The translations under genes were made by a program, and so were the position numbers. Shown here in pieces: positions 21,887-25,895 of a stretch of DNA of 40,439 bases. The notes beneath the pieces are model-generated. The model made no database searches. It was not told the DNA's origin and worked only from the letters and a program-made list of their open reading frames with translations. Source of the stretch: Alphaproteobacteria bacterium (GTDB lineage Bacteria > Pseudomonadota > Alphaproteobacteria > Reyranellales > Reyranellaceae); the NCBI GenBank assembly GCA_016869975.1, contig VGCZ01000047.1, forward strand, positions 1 through 40,439, given 5' to 3'. The stretch's first letter is position 1, and every line of letters starts with the position of its first letter.

Positions 21887-21913
21887 GTCATCCTGAGCGC
21901 AGCGAAGGATGAC
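21887..21913. repeat. Dispersed palindromic repeat, short copy
   Basis: GTCATCCtGAGCGCAGCGAAGGATGAC: arms GTCATCC/GGATGAC around the GAGCGCAGCG centre. It is the same family as 25827-25895 and 29384-29414. It lies between convergent genes (HAD and holA) and could serve as a bidirectional terminator. Confidence 0.7.
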
Positions 21914-22996: not shown

Positions 22997-23872
22997 TTAG
23001 CCGTGCAGGTGGGCCGGGCGCGAGAGGCGTTGACGCACCGAATCGCGCGCGCCCAGCAGCAGCGAGGCGATGTAGCAGGCGGCGGCGGTGAGCACGATCG
23101 AGGGGCCCGAGGGAAGGTCGCTATGGAACGAGACCAGCAGGCCGACATAGCTGGAGAACAGCGCGATCGGCGCCGCCACCAGCGCCATCGACGCCACGTC
23201 GCGGGTCCAGAACGAGGCGGCGATCGCCGGCAGCAGCACCAGGCCCAGCGCCATCAAGGTGCCGATGGCCTGGAAGGCGGCGACCATGTTGAGCACCGCC
23301 AGCGCCAGGAAGGCATAGTGGAAGATCGCGCCGCGCTCGCCCATCGCCACCAGGAAGCCGGGGTTGAAGCACTCCACCACCAGCGGGCGGTAGATGATCG
23401 CCATGCCGACCAGGGTGATGGTCGCCGTCGTCGCCACCAGCAGCAGCGACAGATCGTCGACGGCGAGGATCGAACCGAACAGGATGTGCATCAGATCGAC
23501 GCTCGAGCCCCTGAGCGAGATCATGGTCACGCCCAGGGCCAGCGCGGTGAGATAGGACGCGGCGAAGCTCGCGTCCTCGCGCAGCGAGGTGTAGCGCGCG
23601 ACGACACCGGACAGTAGCGCCACGAGGATGCCGGCGGCGAAACCACCCGCGCCCATCGCCGGCAAGGACAGGCCGCCCAGCAGGAAGCCCACCGCCGCGC
23701 CGGGCAGCAGCGAATGCGCCAGGGCGTCGCCCATCAGGCTCATGCGGCGCAGGATCAGGAACACGCCGATGGTCGAGCTGCCCACCGACAGCGCCAGGCA
23801 CGCCACCAACGCGCGGCGCATGAAGCCGAACTCGACGAATGGCCCGAGCAGGAAGTCGTAAAGGGCTTGCAT
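22997..23872 (-). CDS. znuB: Zinc/metal ABC transporter permease ZnuB
   Basis: 291 residues, with about eight hydrophobic helices across the length. The ABC-3 family pattern is visible: FMRRALVACLALSVGSSTIGVFLILRRMSLMGDALAHSLLPG at the start, the ILFGSILAV cytoplasmic loop, and MALGLVLLPAIAASFWTRD before the last helices. It forms the inner-membrane channel for Zn2+ (possibly Mn2+ or Fe2+ in paralogues) with the ATPase encoded just upstream. It ends in HLHG. It is 81 bases after znuC with a small hairpin between. It starts with ATG at 23872 (MQALYDFLLGPFVEFG). Confidence 0.92.
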   Translation of the reverse strand: MQALYDFLLGPFVEFGFMRRALVACLALSVGSSTIGVFLILRRMSLMGDALAHSLLPGAAVGFLLGGLSLPAMGAGGFAAGILVALLSGVVARYTSLREDASFAASYLTALALGVTMISLRGSSVDLMHILFGSILAVDDLSLLLVATTATITLVGMAIIYRPLVVECFNPGFLVAMGERGAIFHYAFLALAVLNMVAAFQAIGTLMALGLVLLPAIAASFWTRDVASMALVAAPIALFSSYVGLLVSFHSDLPSGPSIVLTAAACYIASLLLGARDSVRQRLSRPAHLHG

Positions 23873-23953: not shown

Positions 23954-24697
23954 CTAGTCAGCCGCGCGCAGGCAGGCATCGGCGTCCTCGTCCCACGCCT
24001 CGGCCATGGCGCGGGCGCGCAGCAGGTTGGCGGCGCTCAAGGTCTCGGCGGTCGGGCCGGCGGCGACCAGCTCGCGCGCCAGCAGGATGGCGTCGGGGAA
24101 GCGCGCACGGGCCTGGTCGATGTCGTGCAGCACGCAGAGCACCGTGCGGCGATCGGCGTGCCAGCGCTGCACCAGCGCCATCAGGTCGGCCGTGGTGCGC
24201 GCGTCGATGGCGTTGAACGGCTCGTCGAGCAGGATGATCTCGGCGTCCTGCAGCAGCACGCGCGCGAACAGCACGCGCTGGAACTGACCGGCCGACAAGG
24301 TCGAGATCGGCCGCCGCTCGAAGCCGCGCAGGCCGACCGCCTCGATGGCGTGGATCGCCTCGTGCCGGTCGTGCGCGCTGGCGCCGCCGAAGCCGCCGAT
24401 GCGCGCCCATCGGCCCAGCAGCACCACCTCGAGCACCGAGATCGGGAAGCCGCGGTCGATGTCGGAGACCTGCGGCAGATAGGCGATCTTGGCACGGCCG
24501 CGGCCCGCCAGGTCGATGCTGCCCTCGACCTTACGGACCTCGCCGATCACCGCCTTCAGGAGCGTGCTCTTGCCGGCGCCATTGGGCCCGACTACGGCGG
24601 TCAGCGCGCCTTCGGCCACGTCGAGGGTGACGTGATGGATCGCCGGATGCCGCTCGTAGGCGACGGTGAGGTCGCGCAGACTGAGCGCGGCGCTCAT
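23954..24697 (-). CDS. znuC: Zinc/metal ABC transporter ATP-binding protein ZnuC
   Basis: 247 residues. It powers high-affinity metal import with ZnuB. Walker A is GPNGAGKST, the ABC signature LSAGQFQRVLFAR, Walker B IILLDEPFNAID, and the switch His lies in VLCVLHDIDQA. The true start is the ATG at 24697 (MSAALSLRDLTVAYERH); the frame is open upstream but that part is occupied by another gene in a different frame. The start overlaps the stop of the 44-residue His-rich gene by ATGA. No periplasmic ZnuA gene is present next to it. Predicted Zur repression comes from the box at 24839-24855. Confidence 0.92.
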   Translation of the reverse strand: MSAALSLRDLTVAYERHPAIHHVTLDVAEGALTAVVGPNGAGKSTLLKAVIGEVRKVEGSIDLAGRGRAKIAYLPQVSDIDRGFPISVLEVVLLGRWARIGGFGGASAHDRHEAIHAIEAVGLRGFERRPISTLSAGQFQRVLFARVLLQDAEIILLDEPFNAIDARTTADLMALVQRWHADRRTVLCVLHDIDQARARFPDAILLARELVAAGPTAETLSAANLLRARAMAEAWDEDADACLRAAD

Positions 24698-24828
24698 GAC
24701 AGCGCCCACCACACGGCCAGCCAGATCAACCCCGCCGGCAGCAGCGCCCAGGCGACACGCCTGACGGCGCTCAGCGATATCAAGGCGGTCGCGAGGTCGG
24801 TAGACAGGTGGTGGTGATGCGTGGCCAT
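24694..24828 (-). CDS. Small His-rich membrane protein coupled to znuC (new, 44 residues)
   Basis: ATG at 24828 opens a 44-codon frame: MATHHHHLST at the N-terminus, a neutral helix, Arg-Arg at residues 23-24, then one hydrophobic segment (residues ~25-42, AWALLPAGLIWLAVWWAL). A single-pass inner-membrane protein with an exposed His4 metal-binding patch is suggested. Its TGA overlaps the znuC ATG (ATGA), indicating translational coupling. The predicted -10 element TATAAT is only 14 bases before the ATG, so the mRNA would be nearly leaderless. I know no named family for it. A role in zinc capture or in regulating ZnuBC is inference; it is easily missed by gene callers because of its size. Confidence 0.68.
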   Translation of the reverse strand: MATHHHHLSTDLATALISLSAVRRVAWALLPAGLIWLAVWWALS

Positions 24829-24838
24829 CGGATTGGCG

Positions 24839-24855
24839 CAATATTATAACATAAG
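24839..24855 (-). promoter_or_regulatory. Zur-like operator and -10 element of the znu operon
   Basis: On the minus strand the sequence reads CTTATGTTATAATATTG. It matches the Zur box ATGTTATAnTATAACAT perfectly across the left half, the central base and TAT of the right half. The embedded TATAAT (24848-24843) would be the -10 element, so a bound repressor would block transcription. No good -35 is visible. The core TTATGTTATAA is shared with 1213-1223. The plus-strand DUF1223 gene starts about 205 bases away on the other side. Confidence 0.68.
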
Positions 24856-25059
24856 ACCGCCCAAGATGTGGCCCATCGACCAGTCGGGCGCAAGGCGATT
24901 CAGCGCAGGGGGCGTCGCCTTTACCAGCTTGGATCGATGTGGCATCTCCCGCCAGCAGTCGGCGATATCACCCGCTTTTGACCCGGCACGGCGCGTTTCG
25001 TGAGCGAGGTTTCCGCGAAGTGATTGGCGCGGGCGGTTCACGACAGGCACATTCGGATT

Positions 25060-25818
25060 ATGACAACTCGACGACAGTTCGCTCGTATCGCCGCCGGCGC
25101 GGCGCTGGGCGGGCTGGGCCTTTCATCGCCGGGCGCCGCCCAGCCCACGGTTCCACTGCCGAACCCACCGGTCGTGGTCGAGCTGTTCACCTCGCAGGGT
25201 TGCTCGTCCTGTCCGCCAGCCGACCGCGTGCTGGGTGAGCTGGCGCGCCGGCCCGACGTGATCGCGCTGTCGGTTCATGTCGATTATTGGGACTACATCG
25301 GCTGGAAGGACCGCTTCGCCAGTGCCGCGACCACCGCGCGCCAGCACGCCTATGCCCAGAGCTTGAAGCAGCGTTACGTCTATACGCCAGAGATGGTGTT
25401 CAACGGCGCCGCGCACGATCCCGGCATCAACGCCAGCCGGGTCGAGAAGCTTCTGCGACAGGCGGCCGAAAAGGCCGGCGCGCGTGTCAATCCCGTGCTT
25501 GGCGCGCTGAGCGGCGGGCGCGGCCTGATCGAGCTGCCCAAGACCCCCGGCGTGCCGCCGGTGGATGTCTGGCTGCTGGGCGTCGATTCGCGCCATGTGA
25601 CGTCGGTGAGCCGCGGCGAGAACCGCGGCGCCACGCTCACCAACGTCAACGTCGTGCGCTCGATCGAGAAGATCGCGACCTGGAGCGGCGAGGCGGCCCG
25701 CCTGACCGTCGCATCGGACAAGCTGGCGCCCGGCGCGGCGATGGTCGTGCTGGTGCAGAGCGTCAATTGCGGCCCGATCCTGGGCGCCGCGCGCCTCGAC
25801 CGGCTGGCCACCAACTAA
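25060..25818 (+). CDS. DUF1223 secreted thioredoxin-like protein
   Basis: 252 residues. A Tat-like signal (TTRRQFARIAAGAALGG, mature near residue 28 after PGAAQ) leads a DUF1223 domain. The domain has VVVELFTSQGCSSCPPADRVL with a CSSC pair in the position of a thioredoxin active site, then LSVHVDYWDYIGWKDRFA and YVYTPEMVFNG, all hallmarks of the family. It should be periplasmic. The redox or binding role is unproven in the family. ATG 25060 is preferred because it begins the twin-arginine signal. It is divergent from the znu operon, so the Zur-like box could influence it, but the distance is large. Confidence 0.87.
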   Translation: MTTRRQFARIAAGAALGGLGLSSPGAAQPTVPLPNPPVVVELFTSQGCSSCPPADRVLGELARRPDVIALSVHVDYWDYIGWKDRFASAATTARQHAYAQSLKQRYVYTPEMVFNGAAHDPGINASRVEKLLRQAAEKAGARVNPVLGALSGGRGLIELPKTPGVPPVDVWLLGVDSRHVTSVSRGENRGATLTNVNVVRSIEKIATWSGEAARLTVASDKLAPGAAMVVLVQSVNCGPILGAARLDRLATN

Positions 25819-25826
25819 GACGCATT

Positions 25827-25895
25827 CCTGTCATCCTGAGCGCAGCGGGGGATCCAGGCCGACCCTGGATCCCCCGCTGCGCTCGGGATGACAGG
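25827..25895. repeat. Dispersed palindromic repeat, long copy
   Basis: Arms CCTGTCATCC-GAGCGCAGCG-GGGGATCCAGG and its near-perfect complement (about 32 bases each, one mismatch) surround a 5-base centre. Related shorter copies are at 21887-21913 and 29384-29414, and a half copy (CTGTCATCCCGAGG) near 35950. It follows the DUF1223 stop by 8 bases and can form a very stable hairpin, perhaps acting as a terminator. Confidence 0.85.

Follow-up and report, generated by a model that had tools for sequence, protein, structure and literature searches.

A widespread, putative small membrane protein encoded ahead of the ATPase of Zni-type zinc importers

Does a short, histidine-rich reading frame at the head of a zinc importer operon encode a protein, and could that protein belong to the importer? 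We addressed this question in a 40,439-nucleotide stretch of DNA from an alphaproteobacterium of the family Reyranellaceae (hereafter, the window). An earlier note on this DNA had described a 44-codon frame that opens with MATHHHHLST, ends in one hydrophobic helix and overlaps the following ATPase gene through an ATGA, and all of these features are present (Table 1). The frame starts with the ATG at 24828 and stops with the TGA at 24696-24694. Its product is strongly hydrophobic in a single stretch, at residues 25-43 (Kyte-Doolittle mean over 19 residues, 1.86), with Arg24 immediately N-terminal to it and Trp36 and Trp41 within it. AlphaFold2 modeled the product as one helix spanning residues 8-43, with a mean pLDDT of 84.6. 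The 44-residue microprotein is thus predicted to have the short, single-pass membrane form expected of KdpF/CydX-type subunits. A structured RNA in place of a gene was rejected, since the only Rfam match was a chance one, scoring 18 bits where the cut-off is 80.

Table 1. Features of the importer operon and its upstream region in window coordinates
Feature	Position	Strand	Basis
Zinc ABC transporter permease (ABC-3), AztB/ZniB type	22997..23872	-	PF00950; NF040871, 245 bits; PsaB fold, Z 24.3
Zinc ABC transporter ATPase, AztA/ZniC type	23954..24697	-	Pfam/NCBIfam; relatives in 240-ATPase tree
Microprotein gene	24694..24828	-	44 codons + TGA; order-wide relatives, genus dN/dS
ATGA overlap, microprotein stop/ATPase start (ATG 24697)	24694..24697	-	Sequence
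Predicted transmembrane helix, residues 25-43	24700..24756	-	Hydrophobicity, AlphaFold2, family profile
Four His codons, residues 4-7	24808..24819	-	Lineage-specific N-terminal feature; in 4 genus members, outside family core
Zur-like 15-bp box TGTTATAATATTGCG	24837..24851	-	Consensus score, shuffles; holds -10-like TATAAT (24843-24848)

The two genes downstream of the microprotein gene encode an ATPase and a permease. The earlier note had called the ATPase gene znuC. The specific name needs qualifying: the closest NCBIfam equivalogs are AztA for the ATPase (216 bits, just under the cut-off of 220) and AztB for the permease (245 bits, under the cut-off of 280), and in a tree of 240 ATPases those of the window's family cluster apart from ZnuC-type ATPases. 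AztA and AztB belong to the AztABCD system (Paracoccus), whose operon also carries AztC and AztD. In contrast, no substrate-binding protein is encoded behind the permease in any of the eight loci checked in the window's family, and the 354-codon frame that follows the window permease is, by eye, unlike a substrate-binding protein. Across microprotein loci with enough sequence, a substrate-binding protein does stand behind the permease in 135 of 186. The absence of ZnuA from the operon, which the earlier note had pointed out, was borne out; the genome's only match to PF01297 (the ZnuA family) lies on another contig (C5). That gene (L001:1501-2427) includes its own His-rich stretch and is directly preceded by a Zur-like box, GGTTACATTATAACAT.

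Other features of the locus were also noted. Before the Walker A loop, the window ATPase has an RHPA.HH motif (residues 16-22), in which R16, H17, P18 and A19 are invariant in an alignment of 18 ATPases and H21 and H22 are present in at least 90%; this motif is possibly metal-related. Divergent from the microprotein gene, and about 230 nt from its start, lies a DUF1223 gene (25060-25818) with no visible link to zinc. An inverted repeat after it (25830-25893; GTCATCCTGAGCGCAGC...), of which the same 17 bases occur again at 21887, resembles a dispersed palindromic repeat or a terminator.

To ask whether the frame is conserved, we searched its relatives. A tblastn search with the 44 residues detected relatives in 72 of the 75 family genomes, the window's own counted. 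All 72 lie upstream of the ATPase gene, 71 of them at -3 to +26 nt and one (L064) beside a partial ATPase match. A profile search of the order detected a relative in 74 of 76 genomes, including every one of the 51 with a completeness of 90% or more and a contamination of no more than 5%. The two misses are uninformative on absence, because in one (G046) only 4 nt separate the start of the ATPase gene from the contig end, and in the other (G054) the contig breaks off inside that gene. The dN/dS ratio, which the earlier note had suggested as a check on the frame, was 0.21-0.38 over six pairs from the genus and had a median of 0.235 over 893 close pairs from the family; these values come from 65 of the 72 family sequences (seven were dropped, mostly for unsure or other starts), and the pairs are not independent. 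Entropy at the three codon positions was 0.45, 0.34 and 1.06 bits (42 sequences). Together, the dN/dS values and codon-position entropies indicate that the microprotein gene is a real gene whose product is under purifying selection.

We then expanded the search to the class, for which 385 genomes were sampled. The family profile matched 20 of these, 15 of them outside the family, and 14 of the 15 matches adjoin a ZnuC relative; the other (G100/L114) has no adjoining ATPase and was taken as false. An ATPase relative with an E-value of 1e-50 or better was present in 97 of the 385 genomes (98 places). From these we took 95 loci (the 93 places outside the family, together with G035 and G075) and searched the 450 nt upstream of the ATPase. 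A first profile, built from 40 members of which 14 come from places also represented in the class set, scored at least 9 bits in 89 of 95 loci, against 8.8 for the best reverse-complement or shuffled control. The six remaining loci are L203, L205, L210, L228, L231 and L249; in L203, L205, L210 and L231, a similar short frame is visible by eye. An iterated profile, for which class and family loci themselves supplied part of the members, reached at least 12 bits in 92 of 95, with a best control of 5.7. In G090 (L228/L412), one of the three loci below this score, the microprotein gene is one position further upstream, behind a 296-codon frame. That intervening frame looks EamA-like by eye.

The iterated profile also underlies the counts given below for the phylum, the named loci, the more distant ATPases, the peptides, the permeases and off-target matches. 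In the phylum sample, the microprotein was found in 45 of 47 loci, including all 25 examined from outside the class; these 47 are mostly the better ones of 120 listed places, and three repeat genomes of the class sample. Of the two loci that lack it, one is of the AztABCD type and the other of the ZnuC type. Among named public loci, the best 80 of at least 579 matches to the window's ATPase all have the microprotein at 20 bits or more (best control, 6.3), and include Reyranella massiliensis, Vineibacter, Rhizobium leguminosarum, Agrobacterium vitis, Azospirillum, Bradyrhizobium, Pseudomonas gingeri, Herbaspirillum and Variovorax. We examined 19 of 30 plasmid matches, of which nine have the microprotein and ten do not. 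It is retained in a genome of only 1.2 Mb (G702, L393). Two records titled Planctomycetota and Anaerolineae (L324 and L372) carry the same operon; their ATPases group among alphaproteobacterial ones, and they are probably misplaced metagenome contigs.

Overall, the microprotein gene stands at its expected place in the operon in 232 of 261 loci, so that it is encoded with the operon throughout the family, as KdpF and CydX are with their complexes. The other 29 loci comprise 11 of the AztABCD type, 17 that are of the ZnuC type or unplaced, and G090. No off-target match of 12 bits or more occurred among the 33,029 frames of these 261 loci, and on this ground we rejected the idea that the microprotein is fused to a different gene in any of them. 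Weak matches in G713, on contigs other than that of its ATPase and with a 65-residue frame as the best, were left uncounted. These counts support the view that a conserved membrane microprotein is encoded together with the ATPase. As for the claim that the gene had gone uncalled, gene tables for seven plasmid loci with the microprotein give a divided answer: four list a hypothetical protein and three list nothing, the table being incomplete by its tool's own account.

The microprotein is absent from sister systems. All 11 loci assigned to the AztABCD type lack it (L124, L128, L276, L401-L406, L409 and L411); the assignment rests on an AztD annotated beside six of them and, for the others, on annotation, resemblance or, for L276, the tree. 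L407 had been placed in this group beforehand, turned out to have the microprotein and was removed. Two Skermanella ATPases annotated as aztA also have it. Among 20 further loci with more distant, mostly ZnuC-type ATPases, 16 lack the microprotein (5.1 bits or less) and four, all outside the class, have it.

We mapped presence and absence onto the ATPase tree, which was built by a quick method from 240 of 250 loci (four short and six duplicate sequences dropped) and includes none of L401-L411. Of the 21 rows scored as absent, 15 form one fully supported clade on one side of the midpoint root. The others lie among the remaining 225 rows: three of the AztABCD type in one clade, L228 (G090), L392, whose branch is long and unsure, and L225, which has a frame at 27 bits but a cut ATPase match. 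The AztABCD clade is drawn inside the microprotein-bearing ATPases on weakly supported forks, which would imply a loss; the starred branches force only one change of label, so the tree depicts a separate AztABCD loss without establishing it. By this pattern, the microprotein marks Zni-type ATPases.

Which part of the microprotein is conserved? We aligned 218 peptides, with starts set by a first-ATG rule and a median length of 44 residues. One profile column is Arg in all 218. Twelve columns later there is a Trp in 206, a second Trp is present in 182, and an Ala follows it in 197. In contrast, only 41 of the 218 have three or more His residues before the helix, and 113 have none. Because few relatives are His-rich and the helix residues are kept, the His cluster in the window is a lineage addition, and on these alignments the conserved core is one helix with an Arg and two Trp residues. 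His-rich tails do recur across several genera, and peptides with 15 to 18 His residues occur in a clade that includes Bradyrhizobium jicamae. In G290 (L110/L188), the helix encoded upstream of the ATPase follows a long run of Gly-His-Pro repeats; the open frame has 142 codons and represents an extreme of His richness. The segment before the helix, Arg included, has a mean net charge of +2.2, compared with 0.0 for the segment after it; the former is more positive in 186 peptides, less so in 13 and equal in 19. This bias predicts an N-in topology, with the His segment in the cytoplasm. The earlier note had suggested searching upstream of znuC in relatives for short frames with a His cluster, one helix and an ATGA overlap. 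A frame with the helix was found widely; the His cluster is confined to a minority, and the 4-nt overlap to 85 of 218. Zinc capture by the His cluster, which it had put forward as a function, therefore finds no support as the central role of the microprotein.

Upstream of the gene, the earlier note had reported a Zur-like box containing a -10 element, and this is indeed present, with TATAAT ending 14 nt before the microprotein ATG. Against a 15-bp Zur consensus (14 positions scored), the box matches at 11 of 14 positions, and an overlapping register at 24842-24856 scores equally. In a mononucleotide shuffling test of the 120 nt upstream, one of 2,000 shuffles equalled this score. Within 110 nt upstream, every one of the 72 family loci reaches 10 of 14 or better (shuffled controls, 4 of 72), whereas a box of at least 11 of 14 was found in only 51 of the 95 class loci (shuffled, 3 of 95). 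The Zur operator of Caulobacter znuGHI is reported to overlap the -10 region in a similar way. The microprotein is therefore probably controlled by Zur, as judged from sequence.

To place the microprotein among known proteins, we compared it with family databases and the literature. The window protein has no Pfam or NCBIfam match at E-values up to 1, and scans of 26 and 28 relatives gave scattered weak matches, each to one or two members and to no one family (the best were DUF378, E 0.0019, and SepX/GlpR, E 0.0025; ZrgA matched one relative at E 0.13). CbtB is a small, His-containing subunit of a metal transporter. A cobalt CbtB-like protein was rejected, as neither the window protein nor the relatives scanned have such a Pfam match. 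The portions consulted of the accounts of ZniCBA in R. leguminosarum (PMC12183173) and Klebsiella pneumoniae describe three genes and do not mention a small gene, nor was one named in the parts seen of the literature searched on zinc importers and small proteins. ZniCBA of Cupriavidus is an efflux pump that shares the name. The R. leguminosarum system has an ATPase and permease of the type found in the window (L336), and in strain UPM791 a Zur motif is reported 153 bp upstream of rlv_3442 (zniC) (PMC12183173). In strain Tri-43 (L336), a box-like sequence, GTAATGTTATTACAT, picked by hand, begins 153 bp ahead of the ATPase ATG; between the two lies a 42-codon relative of the microprotein, MPPRPDRPSVSLLGQSALSRVIGMALVIAVLWLAIHWAVLLP. 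The published Zur box thus leaves enough space for a microprotein gene. Our searches point to a widespread small membrane protein of Zni-type zinc importers that is undescribed in the literature and databases searched.

What might this protein do? KdpF and CydX are single-helix proteins of under about 60 residues that are encoded together with their complexes. We consider it likely that the microprotein is a comparable subunit of the Zni-type (AztA/AztB-like) zinc ABC importer, small and crossing the inner membrane once; the resemblance lies in form and gene order, as the partner here is a zinc ABC importer and sequences were compared only through the Pfam and NCBIfam scans. Binding to ZnuB/ZnuC, one of the roles proposed earlier, is in this sense the best reading, and the association would be physical. 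Upon zinc starvation, Zur would release the single promoter, giving a short transcript that opens with the microprotein; the stop-start overlap would pass translation to the ATPase and then the permease, so that the helix would be made together with its partners. With the N-terminus in the cytoplasm, the Arg would sit at the inner interface and the Trp near the outer one. The helix would pack against the permease and stabilize or tune the complex, a role like that of KdpF and CydX in their own complexes, and in some lineages, including the window's genus, the His-rich tail may bind entering zinc and feed back on transport. ZnuC-type and AztABCD systems work without the microprotein, so it is not needed by the fold.

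Permease residues were compared between loci with and without the microprotein. R19 is present in 202 and D139 in 201 of 221 microprotein loci; these positions are Gln and Asn in all ten AztB sequences, and R19 and D139 are each kept in two of 17 others without the microprotein. By topology reasoning, both may lie at outer helix ends, and they could reflect the binding protein instead. We did not use this co-variation (R19, S69 and D139) as proof because, while the differences are real, they rest on a single AztB group of ten rows and on outer-side positions.

A more specific version of the subunit proposal, which we regard as possible though unlikely, is that the importer receives its tenth helix as a chain of its own, the microprotein. 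BtuC-fold (type II) importers have ten helices per permease, and the related metal permease of MntBC has been modeled with nine (PMC8487065). The predicted window permease has nine long helices at modest confidence (pLDDT 72.7); its model matches the fold of PsaB (Z 24.3), and its alignments to BtuC, HmuU and BhuU begin only at residues 28, 23 and 45 of those proteins, respectively. We take these residues to mark about the end of the first helix. The missing part would then be the first helix of the BtuC fold, whose N-in orientation the microprotein would share.

We weighed the subunit proposal against three other explanations. The main role of the helix may be to anchor a zinc buffer or sensor, rich in His, in the membrane close to the importer, which was the view taken in the earlier note. 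The recurring tails, with up to 18 His residues, speak for this, but more than half of the peptides have no His in that segment and the helix and its Arg are what is conserved, so we consider it improbable. It is distinctly improbable that the microprotein is a small inhibitor that closes the importer once cytoplasmic zinc rises. Small membrane regulators of transporters do exist, among them AcrZ, which like the window microprotein has a single helix and fewer than about 60 residues, and the charge bias would place the many-His tails in the cytoplasm; however, the microprotein would be made together with the importer and, judging from the box, under starvation, when inhibition would be unhelpful, and the tails are often missing. 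Finally, that translation of the frame merely couples or tunes ATPase expression, its residues being irrelevant, is very improbable: it would suit the position directly behind a promoter-like box and the overlap with the ATPase gene (some overlap in 176 of 218 by the first-start rule, 4 nt in the 85 noted above), but not a dN/dS near 0.23, the invariant Arg, gaps of up to 26 nt in the family or the G090 copy one frame further upstream.

Current descriptions give zinc ABC importers three or four parts. A conserved additional one, easily missed for its shortness, would affect the way in which researchers delete, express, purify and model the Zni-type importers of rhizobia and of many other proteobacteria. 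If it does supply a tenth helix, Zni importers would be split-subunit transporters whose added helix carries a His tail in some lineages. Control of a metal ABC importer by a small subunit would become directly testable, with AztABCD and ZnuABC, which lack the microprotein, as a built-in comparison.
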